Source of the DNA: Omnitrophica bacterium RIFCSPLOWO2_01_FULL_45_10
Lineage (GTDB): Bacteria > Omnitrophota > Gorgyraeia > 2-01-FULL-45-10
DNA length: 10,954 nucleotides
NCBI GenBank assembly: GCA_001804165.1
Contig: MHFL01000016.1
Coordinates: forward strand, 10,176 to 21,129
Direction: 5' to 3'
A model generated the notes under the pieces. It saw only the letters and a list, made by a program, of their open reading frames with translations. It did no database searches and had not been told where the DNA came from. Below are positions 3,204-10,954 of the stretch, in pieces. Numbering within the stretch: the stretch's first letter is position 1; each line of letters begins with the position of its first letter. A program made the translations under genes and the position numbers.

Positions 3204-6200
3204 ATGTTAGACGCTAGAACTATAAAAAATAGGGACAGACACCTATTTGAGATAAATAACAAAAATAGGTGTCTGTCCCTATTTTTATTGTTTAAACGCG
3301 TAACCGCCTTTATTACTCTTGTTGCTTTTACCGCTACAACATTAGGCGCTGATTATGCCTGGGCCGCCAGACCATCTGTGGAGCTTGCTAGCGTCGGCTC
3401 TGACAGAGCTGGCGGCTCTGGGCTGATTAAGGAATTCAATGTCGAAACCTTTGCCCTCCCCGAATACCTCGGCCGTATAAAAGGCACCTGGTATCCGTCA
3501 TCCACCCTTCGACGCGGCCATCAGTCAAACAAAGGCCTTGCTCAGGGTGAATCACTTCCTTCGGTCGTGATTCACATCCAGGACGCCCATTGTAACTACG
3601 CGGCTCAGCACAAGATTACTGAAATTATAGAGTATCTCACAAAAGAATACGGAATAGACGTAATCAATCTCGAAGGCGGCGCCAAGGATTACGATCTTGG
3701 CGTATTTAACAGGATAGAAGACAAGGCAGTAAGGGAAAAAGTCGCGGACGAGTTCGTCAAAGAAGGCATGGTAAACGGCGCCGAATACTTCGCCATAAAT
3801 AATCCTAATAAAGTCGCCTTGTGGGGCATCGAGGATGCGAATCTATATTCAGAGAATCTAAAAATATATAGAGATTTCCTTAAATATAAAGACGAGATCG
3901 AGAAACATTTAAAAACTTTAAATCATATATTGAATAATCTGAAACTCCATATTTATTCAAAAGAACTTCTCGAACTTGATACAAAATATACCCAATATAA
4001 AGACGAGAAATTACAGTTTAAAGACTACCTCACTTATCTTATTCAAAAGGCTTCCACTTCCTTGTCATTGCGAGGCCGCGAAGCGGCCGAAGCCAGCGGC
4101 CTTGCCGCTAGGCAGGCAATCTCCTTCACGAATGTATACCTCCTTAACCAATCACTCGAACTGGAAAAGGAGATAGACTTCAAAAAAGCGAACAACGATC
4201 GCGACCAATTGATTGACAGGCTCCATAAACGGCTTTCGAAAGTCGAACTCGAAGAACTCGTCTTGAAGACAGTCGAATTCAAGTCCGAGAAACTCCCTCT
4301 TCACAATTTCTACAACTATCTCTTTAAAAAGGCAAAGGAGTCGAACATACGAGTAGAAGATTTCCCGGCGCTCGAAAAATATATAACCTATATATCGCTT
4401 TACGCGAATATCGATAAATCTAAAATAACGGCTGAAATGGATGCTCTCGAGAATGACATTAAAGCTCGCCTTTACGAAAACGATGCGCAGAAAGAACTGG
4501 GTATATTATCCAAGAACCTGACGATAGTCAAGAATTTATTCAATACGACATTGACGAAAGAGGATTACGATTATTACAAAGCGAATGAAGATTCTTTCAG
4601 CGTGAGACAATATGCCTCATTCATAGAAAAATATGCCCAGCGTTATAAAATTCAGGCAACCCTCGATAAAGACATAACTTCGCTAGACTTCCGCCGCGAA
4701 GAGATATCGAAGTTTTACGAGTATTCACTTAAACGCGACGAAGCGTTTTTGAGGAATATAAAATTTAAGGGTCAAGGGTTAAGGGTCACGGGTCAAGAAC
4801 AACAAACTGCAATACTGATCACGGGCGGTTTCCACACCGAGAATCTCTCTAATCTCTTCAAGGATAATAACATCTCCTACGTCTCGATAATGCCGAACTT
4901 CAAGGACAATGGCGAGGAATGCCGGTACTTTAAATTATTGGCCGGTGAAATGCCATGGAAAGATAATAAGCTATATTTTGCCATATCCCATGCCGTAACT
5001 TCACCCAAGACCTCGCTAATGCAGATAGCTTCCATGAATACATCCCTTCGTGATAAAGGGTGGACTGCAGAACAGATAGGAGAATATAACGGCGCTGTAA
5101 TAGAAAAAATGGTAAGGGTTACGCATAATTCTGACATAACAAAAGTGACGATAGAAAATGGCTCCAGCGCAGTCTTTGTTTTTGAAAAAGGAGAATCTGT
5201 CCGCCTTTCGCTTGGTGAGGTTTTGGTTGAAATATACGGTGAAGAAGGCCCCGACCAGGCCGCCACAGTTGCACCCGAATCGCCGGAGACTGGGCGCGCC
5301 TCGGCGCCTGTCCGCCGAAGCTCCAGCGGAGGGCCTGAGTTGAAGAGCGAAGGCGGAAGCGGGGAGGCGTATGAGGATATTGATGAACTAACAAGAGCGC
5401 TTGAGCCATTTGTGGAATTTAATGAATATGGACCCGTAGGTCTTGAGCCGTCTCAAGAGATATTGCCTGAGCATATTCAGAGACTTGAGGCGACACTTGA
5501 AAGTAAGGATGAGGATATCGCTTTTCTGGCGGCGCACTGCCTTCTGCTTCAACCTGTTCAAGATAAGGCGATAGGCCTTAAGGAACTTCGCGCAGTGGCC
5601 GCACGCATAACAGCAGATATCGAAAAATTCCAAGTCGCATCTGAAAAGTACGAATTCGCGAATGCTATCCTAATTTACACAAAACTAATTGCTGACATAG
5701 ACGAAACACTGTCTACAACACAAATGGACGAACTTACCCTCTATGCGCTTGGTATCGTAAGAGAAACAATTGCCAAGGATATGCGTTACGTGCGGCTTGA
5801 CAAAATTTTCGCCCCGATACCGAAGGCATTTTCGCATCCATTCTTTGACTACACCCTTATAGGAACGATGAGCATATACTATGGCTTTATCTTCTATCTC
5901 GCTCCTCTCCTTGCTCTTTTATATCTCCCCGCGCATGTCGCATCATCGTTTCTCTTGGCCCGAGTGGCGGCCGCCAAATGGGGTTTCAGAGAGAATCCGA
6001 TAGAGGGTATGCGCAAAACCAAGTATCGCATCATCGCGCATTATGCGGCAGCGATTTCGATAGTCTTAGCCGGCTTTTGGATGGCCGGCAATATGGGTTT
6101 AAGAGCCATTCGTTACGATGAAAAACGTGTTCCCGCTCCAATATATCGCCAGGAGCGAGACCTTGAGCAAAAGTTACGCGAACAAAGAAAACTCAATGAG

Positions 6201-9200
6201 GAATTGCGAAAAAAACTGAAGCAGGACGAGAGGAAGAAAGAAGAAGAAAAAAAGGAGCGTGAGAAAGGCCCCCTTGCGCCTCTTGAGAAAGCGGGCAGAA
6301 TCGCGATGACTCCTCGTGGTGACGCCCGCGCCTCGGCGAGCGGGGAGGGACCATCTCAAGGAGAGAGCGAGATCCTTCGTTGGGCAGAAAATGCCGGCCG
6401 TCTGAATAAATATATTAACAGTTCTCTGAGAGCGGTGACAACCCACGATTCGGCCGTAAAGGAATTGGCTGAGTTGAAGAGAAGAGATGAGGAAGGATAT
6501 GAGATTATAGGAAATAATGTTGTCATCAACAGAAATCCCGAAGAATTGAAAGGCCGCCCCAAATTTGAGCGCAACGGCCCGTTTATAGAATTTGACGGCG
6601 CCCTGCGTAAAAACGAGAAAATATATATACTCGAGACGATGTCTTCGAAATGGGAAACCTCGCGAAAGGTCGGCGACAAATTACTTGCTATCCGTGACAA
6701 TTTTGATTATATCAACGGCGTTTTAAGAGAAAGAGGCATAATCGTCGATAAAGAAAATATTAATGGCGTGATAGTCGCGATTTCAGGCTCACAGGAACGC
6801 GCGAGAGCGATAAGGAAAAAAATAAACGAATTCGTTATATTTCACAATGTCTTCGGACCAAAACGATTCGATTTTACTGTTTCCGTAGATAGGGCTGCCA
6901 GCATCGAGCCGTCCAAAGAAACCCGCGCCTCGGTCCCTCGCGAGAGCGCCTCGGGGCAGGCGAGCGGTTCCGGGATACCCGCTATCTCTTTGTCCGATTT
7001 GCATTTTGTCGACGCAGGCGAAATAATAATGCCCCCGCGTTCGACAATCCGCTCGTTGAAAAATATATTCAAGCAATGGAAGGGTAAAGAGGTATTTAGC
7101 TCTCCTCTTATTGGTTCAGATGATGTTCTTATGGCGCTTGTCTCTATTTCTTTAATATCAATTCTGACCGAACTTATTTTATTATTCAATGGTTATGGGC
7201 TCCCTGTGGCTCCCGTATCTTTATTGTTCTTCGTGGCCATTGCCAATAACCAACGTATTCAGGAAATGAGTAGCGGCCTGTTGGTTTCAAACAGCGCTAC
7301 GGAATATCAGGATAGTTCAGAAACCGCGCGGCTGGACAACGATTTATTCATGCCGGTAAAGAGATTTAAGTCAGATACAGGGTGGAAAGTAGTCTGGACA
7401 AGCCTGCCATATTTATTGGCTAAACCGGAAATTGAGTCACGGCGCCTTATATTAAATATCGGCTGGGTGATGGCGAATGAAAAAGATAGAGATAATAACC
7501 GGCTATCCTATCTTGATAAACTGCTCAACAACGTTCACAACAGCATACAGGATCTCGAGAAACTGCGGCTGCCGCAACAGTCGCTTGGAACTAAACCTGA
7601 TGAAACCAGAAATACGGCCATAAATATGCTTCTTTCAGGAGACGATTCATGGGTTGGCTTCATGGACATGGCAAAGGCAGGTTTAAGGAATGTAGTAACC
7701 GGCCGGGAAAATATGGATCTAGTCATTGGCGAAGCGTTCAATATAATCAAGGAATTTCTTGAGACGGGATACAACGGCGCGGTATTTAAAATCGGCGGCG
7801 ATGAAATAGGGTTAGTCCTGCCGGCAGAACTTAGGTTAGAAGATGTACGGATAGCGCTTATAAAGGCGCAGCAACGTTTGGTTGATAATTTCGCCAAGAG
7901 AGGTATGCAAGTGCCGTTTGAGCCGGCTGGCTGTGTGAGAGTTAAAAATACATTAATGGAGATAAACGGAAGGCATGATATTAACAAAAAGGCCGATGAA
8001 CTCTTAACCATAAATCTGAAATATGCGGAGACACTGCAGGGGTTGGCAAAAGAAACAAGCGATGACGGGATCATGGATTTAGTGCGGGTTGAAGAGGAGT
8101 TTGTGGCGCAGGGAGAAACAGACATATCTATCCTTTCTCGGAAAGATCGGAAAGAACTGAATGCCGCGCGTAAAAAGATGGAACCTTTAGGATATGAATT
8201 AGAAGAAGACTATCCATCCATTAAACGCAGGAATCTTTGGGAGGTGATAGATAATGCGAGCAGTCAAAATGTACCTGCCGTATATCTTGCCAGAGCTCCT
8301 CCGGATTCATTCTATGTAATACGAGTATACGGCCGCCGCAAGATCCAAGTGCTCAAGATAACCTCGCGGTATAGGGCCTTGAATCTAAAGACAAAAGTGG
8401 CCTTTGAGGAAGTGCTTAAGGCATCAGGCCGAGAAGGAAAAAGGAGAAGCGACGCCTTTACCTATTATGGCTTTAAAGCGCCGCAGGACGCCTCTCGAAT
8501 ATATGAAAATACAGGCCATGAGCGCGGCAATGACTGGATAAAATTGGAGAATCTCGGAATATATAGGGCGTTCGAGGCGTTGAATGGAAAATTATCGGAT
8601 CTTGAAATCTTACAAATGTTGGACGAAGCCTCCGATTTAGTCAATTTCTACACAATAAAAAGACCATCCGGAAAAGATGAAAGCCCCGAACGCAGAAACT
8701 TGAGTTTTAATGTTGTGTTCGATGCCTCTGAAGTAAATACAGACGATATATGGGTCGTTGAGGATCACAGTATTGCCGGGGCTCTTATGCCTATTCTTGA
8801 GCAACTCAACGAAGCGAGAGAAAGCATCTTAAGGGAGGGTTTTGACGGCCATGGGGGGATAGAGTTTCGAACCGCTGATGTAGGCAAGAGATCCCCCGAG
8901 GTTAAATCATACGAATTGAATAGAAATAACTGGGAAATGATTCTTGCTGAGAATGAGGCCGCCCGCTTAGCCCGCGCGCAGAGAGCCAAACGCGAACTCG
9001 AAGAAGCGGACAAAAGATTGTGGGAGAGTTTCAGATTTATTCTCGCGAAATATTCTATACCCGAAACTGCTGAAGCGCCTGAAGAACTTATGGATGCGCC
9101 GTTCTCGCAGGTTAGCAAACGAAATTTGATGGATGTTCTGGAAAGATTGAAGGAAACAGGCCGTGACGCGGGATTGGCAAAGAAGATTATGGCAATAGTG

Positions 9201-10954
9201 GGGAGCGAACCTAAGAAAGAGAGCGAGGATTTATCGGCGTTGCGGCTCAATTCATATTATCGCGGCTATGGATTTGAAAATACGGCATCTGTTATAGGCG
9301 GGGGGAGACCCTCGGCCGAAATAAATTTCTCTTTGGAAGGAAAGGAATTTTTGGAAAAAGAGGAAACAGGTGGCGGCGCTCTCTTAAAGATACAGGGATT
9401 CGCGATTGTTTTTGCCGATGAGCGTAATGCCAACATACCGCGGGAGCAAGGCGTTTATTACAAGGCGTTGCTCTATGACGTAGCGGCCGTGAGAGAAACC
9501 ATTGATTCCCATTTCGATTTCCTGAATAAAAGATTGCAGAATCAGACAGAGGTTTCACTGAAACGCGGCATGAACGCCGCCGAAATCAAAGTATTGATGA
9601 AATTTATAGTAGACACAGACAATCCCCTGCAAGGCCTTTTCTTCGGTTATCCGGAAGGCGCTGTTCGTCTCTATATTGGCAAAGCGGAAGAACGTTTTAA
9701 CGGCGGCTTTGAATTAAGCGGTCTCATTGACCGCGTTACCGGTAAAAGCAAATTACTTACTCCATTTGCGGGATTCATAACGAGCGAAGAGACGCTGGAT
9801 GAGTCTATTGACGCCTCTCTCAGGGCATGGGAGGGATGGTATAGAGTGACTCATGTTCTGGAATCGGTGGATCGCCTTGGTCATGTTATTTCTGAACATG
9901 CGATAGACGGTGAGGAGTTGGGAAAAGACGCGGTGGAGACAAGAGTTCCTGTTAGCGCGGTAACAGGTCTTTCAGGTAGTCCCCGCGCTTCAGCGAGCGG
10001 AAAAAGACAAACCGCCTCCTTTGATTTATTGGATAAAGTGAATGCTAGCCAATGGTTGGGCGGTGAAGATTCGCTCATGATGAGGGCCCTTGGGATAAAA
10101 GGCGAGATCAGGCTCACATCGGATGAATTTAAGAGCCGAAGCGCGACCATTATGAGATTAAATCAATTTAAGGAAGAAAATAATCTAAACGAGAAGAAAG
10201 ACGTTGTATTGGTATATTATTTCGGTCCTTCTCAAGCGGGCGGCACAGACCGCGTGATGAGGATGGTCGCCGGTACAATTGAGAAATTGAAAGAAAGAGC
10301 TGAATCCATAAGTACGTATTCGGCGTGTAATTTCGAGACCGACTCAGGCCCGTTTCTTTTCGAGCATACTATCGCTTTAGAGCCGACTGAAAAGACAATA
10401 GAGATCGTTGTCAGGTATGTCGCCGAAAATATGCGGAACGGCGCGGCCATAGAACAATGGTCACGAGCCCGAAAGGCTATTCTGAATGAGCATTTCAAAG
10501 ATTACGATCTTATAAGTAACGCCGTGAATTTATATCCTATGATTGAATTTGACAGGCTTTATGGCGGGGACCTGGATTTTAAAGAAAAGGATGAATTTGA
10601 CGAATCCATCACCCTGTCTTTAGTGTCATTGAATGATTTTGTAGAGTTGGGTCTATTAAATGACGATAACGTCAAAGAATTGGAACAGGCCAAGAATGCC
10701 GTATCGCGGGCAGGCGACGAAATTTATGTCAAACGGATAAGTATTTATAAAATTTTGAGAAATAAATGGGCCAAAGAAACAAGCGGCGGTAACACCCTGG
10801 CCGAGATCAATAAACGTTTACTAAGAAAATTAGCTGAGATGAAAACCGCTGCGGAAAAAGCAGGCAGGGATCCGAACGAAGCCAAAAAGATATTCAAAAG
10901 GCTTCTAATCAGTACCGGCCCTTATGCCTTGAAAGCAAAAATAAGAGGTCAACC
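3204..10954 (+). CDS. Giant multi-module exported/membrane protein, 3' end outside window (at least 2583 aa)
   Basis: One frame runs from ATG 3204 to the window end with no stop. ATG 3204 is the first ATG after an in-frame TAG at 3186, with a weak AGAAAG 11 bases upstream. TTG at 3288 (residue 29) is an alternative start that would place the signal peptide at the N-terminus. Modules in order: signal peptide 29-54; palindrome-rich spacer ~98-124; TIKI/ChaN-like domain ~119-575 with a long helical insert; Arg-Ala-Ser linker 697-721; helical region 722-880; membrane segments ~884-907 and ~944-966; charged coiled coil ~983-1025; linker 1041-1049; possible degenerate nuclease-like fold ~1095-1235; split linker 1240-1256; hydrophobic hairpin ~1308-1347; GGDEF-like domain ~1480-1610; unassigned 1611-2259, with a coiled coil ~1916-1950; linker 2260-2267; unassigned to the end. 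Overall function unknown. A membrane-anchored sensory or surface polyprotein is a guess. Low-complexity linkers and multi-domain length recall giant ORFs of Omnitrophota. Confidence 0.9.
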   Translation, partial: MLDARTIKNRDRHLFEINNKNRCLSLFLLFKRVTAFITLVAFTATTLGADYAWAARPSVELASVGSDRAGGSGLIKEFNVETFALPEYLGRIKGTWYPSSTLRRGHQSNKGLAQGESLPSVVIHIQDAHCNYAAQHKITEIIEYLTKEYGIDVINLEGGAKDYDLGVFNRIEDKAVREKVADEFVKEGMVNGAEYFAINNPNKVALWGIEDANLYSENLKIYRDFLKYKDEIEKHLKTLNHILNNLKLHIYSKELLELDTKYTQYKDEKLQFKDYLTYLIQKASTSLSLRGREAAEASGLAARQAISFTNVYLLNQSLELEKEIDFKKANNDRDQLIDRLHKRLSKVELEELVLKTVEFKSEKLPLHNFYNYLFKKAKESNIRVEDFPALEKYITYISLYANIDKSKITAEMDALENDIKARLYENDAQKELGILSKNLTIVKNLFNTTLTKEDYDYYKANEDSFSVRQYASFIEKYAQRYKIQATLDKDITSLDFRREEISKFYEYSLKRDEAFLRNIKFKGQGLRVTGQEQQTAILITGGFHTENLSNLFKDNNISYVSIMPNFKDNGEECRYFKLLAGEMPWKDNKLYFAISHAVTSPKTSLMQIASMNTSLRDKGWTAEQIGEYNGAVIEKMVRVTHNSDITKVTIENGSSAVFVFEKGESVRLSLGEVLVEIYGEEGPDQAATVAPESPETGRASAPVRRSSSGGPELKSEGGSGEAYEDIDELTRALEPFVEFNEYGPVGLEPSQEILPEHIQRLEATLESKDEDIAFLAAHCLLLQPVQDKAIGLKELRAVAARITADIEKFQVASEKYEFANAILIYTKLIADIDETLSTTQMDELTLYALGIVRETIAKDMRYVRLDKIFAPIPKAFSHPFFDYTLIGTMSIYYGFIFYLAPLLALLYLPAHVASSFLLARVAAAKWGFRENPIEGMRKTKYRIIAHYAAAISIVLAGFWMAGNMGLRAIRYDEKRVPAPIYRQERDLEQKLREQRKLNEELRKKLKQDERKKEEEKKEREKGPLAPLEKAGRIAMTPRGDARASASGEGPSQGESEILRWAENAGRLNKYINSSLRAVTTHDSAVKELAELKRRDEEGYEIIGNNVVINRNPEELKGRPKFERNGPFIEFDGALRKNEKIYILETMSSKWETSRKVGDKLLAIRDNFDYINGVLRERGIIVDKENINGVIVAISGSQERARAIRKKINEFVIFHNVFGPKRFDFTVSVDRAASIEPSKETRASVPRESASGQASGSGIPAISLSDLHFVDAGEIIMPPRSTIRSLKNIFKQWKGKEVFSSPLIGSDDVLMALVSISLISILTELILLFNGYGLPVAPVSLLFFVAIANNQRIQEMSSGLLVSNSATEYQDSSETARLDNDLFMPVKRFKSDTGWKVVWTSLPYLLAKPEIESRRLILNIGWVMANEKDRDNNRLSYLDKLLNNVHNSIQDLEKLRLPQQSLGTKPDETRNTAINMLLSGDDSWVGFMDMAKAGLRNVVTGRENMDLVIGEAFNIIKEFLETGYNGAVFKIGGDEIGLVLPAELRLEDVRIALIKAQQRLVDNFAKRGMQVPFEPAGCVRVKNTLMEINGRHDINKKADELLTINLKYAETLQGLAKETSDDGIMDLVRVEEEFVAQGETDISILSRKDRKELNAARKKMEPLGYELEEDYPSIKRRNLWEVIDNASSQNVPAVYLARAPPDSFYVIRVYGRRKIQVLKITSRYRALNLKTKVAFEEVLKASGREGKRRSDAFTYYGFKAPQDASRIYENTGHERGNDWIKLENLGIYRAFEALNGKLSDLEILQMLDEASDLVNFYTIKRPSGKDESPERRNLSFNVVFDASEVNTDDIWVVEDHSIAGALMPILEQLNEARESILREGFDGHGGIEFRTADVGKRSPEVKSYELNRNNWEMILAENEAARLARAQRAKRELEEADKRLWESFRFILAKYSIPETAEAPEELMDAPFSQVSKRNLMDVLERLKETGRDAGLAKKIMAIVGSEPKKESEDLSALRLNSYYRGYGFENTASVIGGGRPSAEINFSLEGKEFLEKEETGGGALLKIQGFAIVFADERNANIPREQGVYYKALLYDVAAVRETIDSHFDFLNKRLQNQTEVSLKRGMNAAEIKVLMKFIVDTDNPLQGLFFGYPEGAVRLYIGKAEERFNGGFELSGLIDRVTGKSKLLTPFAGFITSEETLDESIDASLRAWEGWYRVTHVLESVDRLGHVISEHAIDGEELGKDAVETRVPVSAVTGLSGSPRASASGKRQTASFDLLDKVNASQWLGGEDSLMMRALGIKGEIRLTSDEFKSRSATIMRLNQFKEENNLNEKKDVVLVYYFGPSQAGGTDRVMRMVAGTIEKLKERAESISTYSACNFETDSGPFLFEHTIALEPTEKTIEIVVRYVAENMRNGAAIEQWSRARKAILNEHFKDYDLISNAVNLYPMIEFDRLYGGDLDFKEKDEFDESITLSLVSLNDFVELGLLNDDNVKELEQAKNAVSRAGDEIYVKRISIYKILRNKWAKETSGGNTLAEINKRLLRKLAEMKTAAEKAGRDPNEAKKIFKRLLISTGPYALKAKIRGQ
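3225..3286 (+). repeat. 24-bp perfect inverted repeat over the N-terminal codons of the giant gene
   Basis: Left arm 3225-3248 and right arm 3263-3286 are exact reverse complements over 24 bases with a 14-base loop. The core of the right arm reads AATAGGTGTCTGTCCCTATT. As RNA this is a very stable hairpin starting 21 bases after ATG 3204 and ending one base before the alternative start TTG 3288. I recall the GGTGTCTGTCCCTATTTT-type sequence as a dispersed palindromic repeat in environmental genomes, but cannot check this. It encodes the non-conserved-looking residues 8-28 ahead of the signal peptide, which suggests insertion into the leader or start region. Confidence 0.85.
3288..3365 (+). 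other. Predicted signal peptide of the giant protein (residues 29-54)
   Basis: Residues 29-54 show a Lys-Arg pair, a hydrophobic core (VTAFITLVAFTATTLGA) and an A-x-A cleavage motif, YAWA before ARP, with predicted cleavage after Ala54. Counted from TTG 3288 this is a standard 26-residue Sec signal; counted from ATG 3204 it has a 28-residue N-terminal extension encoded by the inverted repeat. It implies that the following TIKI/ChaN-like domain is outside the cytoplasmic membrane. Confidence 0.75.
3502..3575 (+). repeat. Cluster of nested palindromes within coding sequence
   Basis: CACCCT (3503-3508) faces AGGGTG (3544-3549), and the flanks CCCTTCGAC and GCTCAGGGTGA resemble the widespread REP-type core CCCTTCGACAAGCTCAGGG, here pulled apart by ~20 bases bounded by GGCC and GGCC. 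A perfect 9-bp hairpin follows: GTGAATCAC (3547-3555) with GTGATTCAC (3567-3575). The segment encodes residues ~100-124, a polar spacer (TLRRGHQSNKGLAQGES) between signal peptide and first domain, so it is probably tolerated as a linker. The repeat identity is recalled, not searched. Confidence 0.5.
4065..4124 (+). repeat. 60-base REP-like palindromic element inserted in frame
   Basis: The element starts TCATTGCGAGG and ends GGCAATCTCC. It contains two perfect hairpins, GGCCGC-GAA-GCGGCC and AGCGGC-CTT-GCCGCT, and outer arms ATTGC/GCAAT. This matches the CATTGCGAGG...GCAATCTC dispersed palindromic repeat that I recall from many genomes, usually intergenic. Its length is exactly 20 codons and it adds residues 288-307 (SLRGREAAEASG, then LAARQAIS), an Ala/Arg-rich stretch unlike the surrounding Lys/Glu/Tyr-rich helices. 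Small open frames on both strands here are by-products of the GC-rich repeat. Confidence 0.85.
4767..4794 (+). repeat. Heptanucleotide tandem repeat, four units
   Basis: Units AAGGGTC, AAGGGTT, AAGGGTC, ACGGGTC lie head to tail, encoding residues 522-531 (KGQGLRVTGQ) just before the ITGGFH motif. The unit length is not a multiple of three, so gain or loss of one unit would shift the frame. Confidence 0.8.
5292..5366 (+). repeat. RAS-linker palindrome copy 1, split by a 51-base insertion
   Basis: Core CGCC-TC-GGCG (5297-5306) is followed by 51 bases (5307-5357) and then the expected downstream half AGCGGGG (5358-5364). The insertion is exactly 17 codons and has its own palindromic sequence around TCCGCCGAAGCTCCAGCGGA. 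The protein reads GRASA, then an Arg/Ser/Gly-rich insert, then SGE (697-721). It separates the TIKI-like domain from the helical region. Confidence 0.75.
5853..6102 (+). other. Two membrane segments (residues ~884-966)
   Basis: The first hydrophobic segment is ~884-907 (TLIGTMSIYYGFIFYLAPLL and on) and the second ~944-966 (IAHYAAAISIVLAGFWMAGN). They are joined by a strongly basic loop (RVAAAKWGF and GMRKTKYR), which by the positive-inside rule should face the cytoplasm. This fits an exported N-terminal domain. A charged Lys/Glu/Arg coiled coil (residues ~983-1025, ending near 6278) follows directly. Confidence 0.7.
6324..6350 (+). repeat. RAS-linker palindrome copy 2 (intact)
   Basis: Intact hairpin: CCCG (6325-6328), CGCC (6329-6332), loop TC, GGCG (6335-6338), bulge AG, CGGG (6341-6344). 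It encodes ARASASGEG at residues 1041-1049, between the coiled coil and the possible nuclease-like module. Confidence 0.85.
6486..6908 (+). other. Possible degenerate PD-(D/E)XK-like alpha/beta module (residues ~1095-1235)
   Basis: Residues FIEFDG (Glu1129, Asp1131) followed 13 residues later by IYILETMSSKW (Glu1144) resemble the strand-Asp-strand-Glu core of restriction-endonuclease-like folds. The lysine expected two residues after the Glu is Met1146, with Lys1149 nearby, so catalysis is doubtful. Later strands (GVIVAISG) and helices fit an alpha/beta fold. This is a weak call from pattern only; it may be an unrelated fold. Confidence 0.2.
6921..6969 (+). repeat. RAS-linker palindrome copy 3, split by a 27-base insertion
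   Basis: CCCG (6922-6925), CGCC (6926-6929), TC, GG (6932-6933), then 27 extra bases (6934-6960), then CG-AG-CGG (6961-6967). Removing the 27 bases restores the intact hairpin exactly. The insertion is nine codons. The protein reads TRAS-VPRESASGQ-ASG (residues 1240-1255). It separates the possible nuclease-like module from the hydrophobic hairpin and GGDEF region. Confidence 0.8.
7125..7244 (+). other. Hydrophobic hairpin, membrane segment(s) ahead of the GGDEF domain
   Basis: Residues ~1308-1328 (VLMALVSISLISILTELILL) form a clear hydrophobic helix. A tight turn (NGYGLP) leads to a shorter hydrophobic run ~1333-1347 (VAPVSLLFFVAIA). Whether the second run spans the membrane decides which side the GGDEF-like domain is on. 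Confidence 0.55.
7641..8033 (+). other. Divergent GGDEF (diguanylate cyclase-type) domain, residues ~1480-1610
   Basis: The signature FKIGGDEIGLVLP (1528-1540) matches the GGDEF active-site hairpin with Ile replacing the last Phe. Upstream, VGFMDMAKAGLRN aligns with the metal-site strand: Asp1488, Asn1496 and Asp1505 fall at the +0, +8 and +17 spacing of Asp327, Asn335 and Asp344 in PleD. The Asp1488 to GGDEF-acid distance (45) is close to PleD's 43. Downstream KKADELLTINLKYAE matches the ADxALYxAK helix. The product-inhibition RxxD motif is absent and the N-terminal DxLTGLxNR motif is not recognisable. Known family members make cyclic di-GMP from two GTP. Here activity is uncertain, but the fold is well supported. 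Confidence 0.7.
8034..9977 (+). other. Unassigned part of the giant protein (residues ~1611-2258)
   Basis: Open coding sequence with no family I recognise. Visible features are a beta-rich patch (AVYLAR, FYVIRVYGRRKIQVLKI, ~1695-1730), a charged coiled coil (~1916-1950), a Gly-rich GGGRPSAE near residue 2032 and a strand-rich patch LFFGYPEGAVRLYIGK (~2148-2163). No stop, frameshift or intergenic signal is present. An intact RAS linker follows at 2260. Confidence 0.5.
9981..10003 (+). repeat. RAS-linker palindrome copy 4 (intact)
   Basis: CCCG (9982-9985), CGCT (9986-9989), loop TC, AGCG (9992-9995), bulge AG, CGG (9998-10000). The inner pair is T-A where copy 2 has C-G, so pairing is kept by a compensatory change. 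It encodes PRASASGK at residues 2260-2267 and separates two unassigned regions. Coding continues from here to the window end with no recognised family (about 315 residues visible). Confidence 0.85.

Follow-up and report, generated by a model that had tools for sequence, protein, structure and literature searches.

The end of one contig in an Omnitrophota genome carries a giant open reading frame (ORF) in which a short, self-complementary element recurs at intervals along the coding strand. This raises the question of what is being maintained at these sites, the DNA, the RNA or the peptide, and what it does for the protein. The window, by which we mean the whole 10,954-nt stretch of DNA analyzed here, lies at the end of contig C16 in the source genome G000 (1.43 Mb in 64 contigs, 86.7% complete), and searches of Pfam and NCBIfam with its giant ORF returned no family match. 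The layout of this ORF is as follows:

3204..10952, + strand: giant ORF, 2583 aa or more, with no stop before the contig ends
3300..3365, + strand: signal-like hydrophobic segment VTAFITLVAFTATTLGADYAWA (by eye)
3372..5273, + strand: N-terminal module (HIQDAHCNYAAQ), with matches in family genomes and many proteins
5295..5363, + strand: linker 1, RASA-PVRRSSSGGPELKSEGG-SG, 69 nt
5313-5330, + strand: intact hexapeptide RRSSSG within linker 1
5364..6326, + strand: module 2, including stretches that look hydrophobic by eye
6327..6344, + strand: linker 2, RASASG (CGC GCC TCG GCG AGC GGG)
6345..6923, + strand: module 3, probably nuclease-like, predicted folded core about 6450-6851
6924..6968, + strand: linker 3, RASV-PRESASGQA-SG, 45 nt
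6939-6956, + strand: intact hexapeptide RESASG within linker 3
7605..9875, + strand: module 4, containing KIGGDEIG
9984..10001, + strand: linker 4, RASASG (CGC GCT TCA GCG AGC GGA)
10002..10952, + strand: module 5, truncated where the contig stops

The KIGGDEIG of module 4 is, by eye, what we take to be a GGDEF-like sequence, and the conserved block of this module recurs in two other proteins, P0044 (44% identity) and P0069 (43%). Two further repeats are read in frame within the ORF. A perfect 24-nt inverted repeat near its start (3225-3286, coding NRDRHLF) is nearly duplicated on contig C10 (9658), where a Y1 transposase gene lies ∼120 bp away, and a second repeat, TCATTGCGAGG...GCAATCTC, lies inside the N-terminal module (4065-4125) and is resembled by a stretch that interrupts an ORF, presumably PheT, at L010:677.

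The palindromic core and its reading frame

The earlier note on this DNA proposed four copies of a palindromic core in the window, all read in the same frame. Allowing up to three mismatches, the core CCCGCGCYTCRGCGAGCGGG is found at two sites, exactly at 6325 and with one mismatch at 9982, against a mean of 0.01 in shuffled sequence (0/200 shuffles reach 2). The other two proposed copies, at 5292 and 6921, retain only the left half, having CGCGCCTCGG in common before they diverge, and both correspond to longer linkers. All four sites nevertheless carry one peptide, R-x-S-[AST]-S-G.

Both the recurrence of the core and its single reading frame extend beyond the window to the rest of the source genome. 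G000 has 14 core sites at up to three mismatches, seven of them in one ORF on C64, and every one of the 14 is read in the same frame from the sense strand of a long ORF; 13 read RASASG or RASTSG (the latter once) and the remaining site, on C37, reads RAPASG. In three related genomes (G001, G020, and G026) the near-palindromes are also in frame (5/5), and of 16 background sites elsewhere, 5 have their longest open frame in the RASASG register. The palindrome search covered the source genome, 117 relatives and 384 genomes of the phylum, and beyond these four genomes a 17-mer (at most one mismatch) gives single or few matches per genome. Two of those five background sites, one each in G060 and G085 (L038 and L039), read RASASG in an open frame.

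Selection on the peptide and copying of its DNA

Counting all forms, G000 contains 35 linkers in seven ORFs, comprising 16 RASASG, nine other hexapeptides (RQSASG, RQSTSG, RASTSG, RHSASG, RYSASG, and RSSASG), seven linkers of 23 residues and three of 15. The three related genomes carry the same peptide, with very different codons in G026, which belongs to the same order as G000 and to another family. This genome encodes a 5320-aa ORF with 18 strict copies and a 4870-aa ORF with 12; the former is part of a 7810-aa protein (P0122) with 21 copies, and a search for relatives of this giant recovered only P0122, its own longer record.

From chosen stretches of the four genomes we pooled those ORFs that reach 500 aa and contain the motif once or more (18 ORFs, 40,361 aa). 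These ORFs, picked because they hold the motif, contain 85 copies (37 in G026, 35 in G000, 8 in G001, and 5 in G020) against 0.18 expected from composition. Among near-matches in which every other fixed position is intact, Arg is kept in 85/88, the first Ser in 85/93, the small residue in 85/87, the second Ser in 85/96, and Gly in 85/89. Position 2 is free, accepting at least 12 residues, and the sequence flanking the motif in the pooled ORFs holds little information and no conservation. The Arg position uses all six codons, with 33 nonmodal synonymous codons to 3 replacements where one-step neutral change would give 3 to 6 (p 4e-13, a rough value since the ORFs were selected for the motif and the copies treated as independent); the corresponding figures are 55 to 4 for Gly, 56 to 8 for the first Ser, and 13 to 11 for the second. 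Neither the motif-based choice of ORFs nor the nonindependence of copies makes synonymous changes outnumber replacements. This large excess of synonymous change, together with the free second position and the unconserved flanks, makes it well supported that selection acts on the peptide R-x-S-[AST]-S-G. The second Ser is encoded by AGC in 72 of the 85 copies from the four genomes and by AGT in one, a bias that peptide selection alone does not explain.

A degenerate search for RASASG in G000 gives 27 matches, 11 in the reversed control; 24 of the 27 code RxSASG. Of these, 23 are read in frame, either in long ORFs or in a short ORF of C2 (265 aa) or C64 (283 aa), and the out-of-frame RxSASG match at C34:1859 is taken as chance. 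The same search falls below its control in G005, G017, and G023, congeners of G020, and an any-codon search for RASASG in the family genomes mostly shows no clear excess over the reversed control (16 vs. 5 in G000).

Synonymous codons agree among the RASASG copies of G000 at a level of 0.558, compared with 0.226 expected from codon usage and 0.307 at the top of 500 simulations, and among the 23-residue linkers at 0.767 compared with 0.251. Synonymous identity above that given by codon usage shows that linker copies multiplied inside G000 as coding DNA. A 51-nt stretch coding PVRRSSSGD..L.SEGG fills the precise interval from RxSA to SG in seven linkers. The end codons of these linkers vary (for example, AGA GCG AGC GCG / AGT GGC; CGG CAA AGC GCG / AGC GGA; CGC GCC TCG GCG / AGC GGG). 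Its six matches in G000 are all in frame in long ORFs, none lying between genes, and a search of the 384 phylum genomes for its core gave just one site, with one mismatch, in each of two genomes. The 15-residue form is RAS[AV]-PR[EQ]SASGQA-SG. The nuclease-like stretch of the window has 28% protein identity to that of C48 with the linker counted in, yet the 15-residue linkers after these two stretches show only 6 differences in 45 bases, suggesting that the linkers are younger than the modules, have undergone conversion, or are under DNA-level constraint too. One and the same joint has plain RASASG in P0003 and the long form in C48. Each of the ten longer linkers (seven of 23 residues and three of 15) contains an intact RRSSSG, RESASG, or RQSASG, which is expected if the hexapeptide is needed.

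Module joints and distribution in Omnitrophota

The proposal that the copies mark domain borders is supported. Linker flanks are more disorder-prone than the median of other sites for 33 of the 35 linkers in G000 and for 46 of 51 in a second count (TOP-IDP scale), and 0/50 linkers fall inside Pfam hits where 5.6 are expected (P 0.003). The latter test used the best stretch per Pfam family in ORFs other than that of the window, which has no Pfam hit; counting a low-complexity hit in C37b (16.6 bits, cut-off 100), 1/52 linkers lie inside (P 0.017). In the window, linkers 2 and 3 fall on either side of the predicted nuclease-like core of module 3 and outside it. We consider a nuclease-like fold probable for this module based on VIA-align, conserved residues and a NERD hit in a relative, the related module of C48 having the Pfam NERD match. 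A Foldseek search with the nuclease model returned no match at E 0.001, and large proteins searched with the nuclease stretch likewise yielded no relative at E 0.001.

Several of the giants start with signal-like segments (by eye), and a C-terminal domain of about 200-250 aa is common to C33, C48, C60, C2, P0003, and P0122. A profile of these six tails detects the domain in five more proteins among 120 listed relatives of the N-terminal module and in two ORFs of L237, each time at the end or close to it. The modules strung between these ends are unrelated to one another, and include a dehydrogenase, helix-turn-helix and sigma-70 regions, an M48 peptidase, an acetyltransferase, a deaminase, a phosphodiester glycosidase, and a nuclease-related domain, with HEAT, methyltransferase, protein kinase, and sugar enzyme modules in the giants of G026.

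The N-terminal module of the window ORF has matches in 24 of 26 family genomes (325 matching proteins, of which 120 were listed) and zero in G020, a genome with 6% contamination. Among the 120 listed relatives the motif occurs nine times, in four proteins. Motif-like sites are present in 2/19 giants (20 stretches), and 81 ORFs of 79 named loci hold two motif copies against 0.44 expected. The repeated peptide is thus rarer than the N-terminal module, and most relatives of that module are without it. At the joint of linker 1, relatives have the broken forms RRSPSG (P0085) and RASASK (P0001). Two other family genomes repeat unrelated linkers of their own in giants (L084 and L097), with near-identical codons, one resembling KPEQPSTPAAGVAPQGPSPI and present four times (G019) and the other SYPPGGE-like (YPPGGE) and present five times (G010). 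The rarity among relatives, the unrelated linkers of the other two genomes, and the broken linker 1 joints are the strongest evidence against a seam that this protein family needs without exception.

A proposed recognized seam, its alternatives, and known systems

We favor, at a probability of roughly 45%, the reading that R-x-S-[AST]-S-G is a recognized seam, most likely cut by a protease after export. The seam would be a short peptide that a few Omnitrophota use where modules meet in their giant, probably exported, proteins, and its strict Arg, two Ser, and Gly suggest that another protein recognizes it. A protease cutting the seam after export would release the modules, so that the gene works as a polyprotein. 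We choose a protease as the partner because the motif stands at joints that are likely exposed, between complete modules, and has a fixed Arg. Of the roles suggested earlier, protease-cleaved polyprotein spacers are the candidate that best fits the later evidence, the cutting itself being inferred. The RAPASG of C37 and the unrelated linkers repeated in two genomes count against this reading. The fuller proposal of a bacterial polyprotein family, in which giant exported chains link unrelated enzymes through one hexapeptide cut by a dedicated protease and the cut-site DNA is copied in frame to make new joints, is more tentative, and we would put the odds against it.

A simpler possibility is that a flexible linker-coding stretch was copied with or between modules and that no partner reads it. 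The excess synonymous identity of both linker classes, the disorder-prone flanks, and the unrelated linkers repeated in other genomes would all follow from such a passive spacer. It would also be expected to tolerate Lys for Arg or Ala, Gly, or Asn for Ser, but these replacements are rare even though synonymous codons vary, and the motif is kept intact in all ten longer linkers; we regard a passive spacer as unlikely, though well worth keeping in view. The earlier note also raised a mobile palindrome tolerated as a flexible linker. A REP- or RPE-like element landing in frame would suit the palindromic core, the near-identical copies, the 51-nt stretch that recurs at one fixed position in seven linkers despite their differing end codons, the further in-frame repeats of the window ORF, and the three Y1 transposase genes of G000. 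Copying as coding DNA in G000 is the part of this idea that stands. A free mobile palindrome is unlikely, given that 14/14 near-palindromes and 6/6 matches to the 51-nt stretch are in frame with none between genes, that in the 384 phylum genomes the 51-nt core elsewhere amounts to single one-mismatch sites in two genomes, and that residues stay constant while codons diverge, G026 sharing the peptide but hardly the codons; we assign the mobile element a low probability. A similarly low one attaches to a modification or attachment site, with both Ser glycosylated or surface-linked and Arg and Gly serving as recognition residues. The two retained Ser, the disorder-prone flanks, and the signal-like N-termini are compatible with it, but the motif is absent from relatives with the same N-terminal module.

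RNA hairpins that pace the folding of modules, another of the roles suggested earlier, are very improbable. The core is self-complementary, and under the structure first proposed two pairs show one double change each. One of these is the paired change from C-G to T-A, which is true for the two full window copies. The pair concerned would enclose a loop of only 2 nt, and the predicted fold leaves its bases unpaired. In a set of 11 distinct copies both of its bases change together once and the pairing is lost twice; one further pair shows a single double change. The covariation score is equaled by 45/500 shuffles and is not significant, and the predicted fold has zero pairs changing on both sides. 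Folding z values are unremarkable, both for five window stretches (-0.34, -0.85, -0.95, -0.62, and +0.75) and for two stretches from other ORFs (-0.01 and -1.79). Over the 85 copies, the third base of the Arg codon pairs with that of residue 4 in 42 cases compared with 38.5 in shuffles. The other pair is found 19 times against 10.7 shuffled in G000, an excess that shared descent can cause, and 12 times against 10.1, no excess, in G026.

If the recognized seam that we favor is a cut site, it represents a bacterial polyprotein strategy with one repeated site; if it is uncut, the seam remains a plain example of in-frame copying of a short peptide that selection then preserves where modules join. 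In either case a fixed seam allows the giants to be divided into modules for separate expression, naming, and assay. Omnitrophota giant ORFs have been described as very long, with few annotated domains and obscure functions (PMC10066038, in part), and the main text of that description, in the portion available, makes no mention of a repeated seam motif and uses "linker" and "polyprotein" 0 times. In the open-access literature examined on Omnitrophota linkers, PMC11573180 included, we found no description of such a seam, and neither RASASG nor "bacterial polyprotein" was found in open-access literature.

Rickettsia palindromic elements have a stable hairpin, which the folding z values here, -1.79 to +0.75 over seven stretches, do not show. 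They are ∼150 bp long with about half in genes, and resemble the present case as short dyad-symmetric repeats found in frame in unrelated proteins (PMC10969869, in part). In-frame insertion into ORFs is shared by all 14 near-palindromes. In contrast to the Rickettsia elements, the linkers measure 18, 45, or 69 nt, none of the 14 near-palindromes or six 51-nt sites lies between genes in the incomplete genome G000, and the copies stand at joints, their residues conserved even as codons diverge. PARCEL repeats are likewise peptide repeats from dyad-symmetric coding DNA that spread within genomes (PMC2996958, in part). They are tandem 25-residue amphipathic units, whereas the hexapeptides are dispersed between modules, the spacing from one motif start to another being 21 to 1020 residues in G000 and 10 to 1072 in P0122.

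MARTX multifunctional autoprocessing proteins possess a built-in cysteine protease domain that cuts the linkers between modules (PMC11266601, in part). A Pfam hit to such a domain was found neither in the scanned ORFs at E 0.01, several of which are incomplete, nor in the window ORF at E 1. The giants resemble MARTX in combining unrelated functional modules in one chain, and their linkers likewise lie between modules, where those of MARTX are handled sites and cutting of the seam is our prediction. As a polyprotein, such a giant would free its modules much as the linkers between MARTX effectors are cut.
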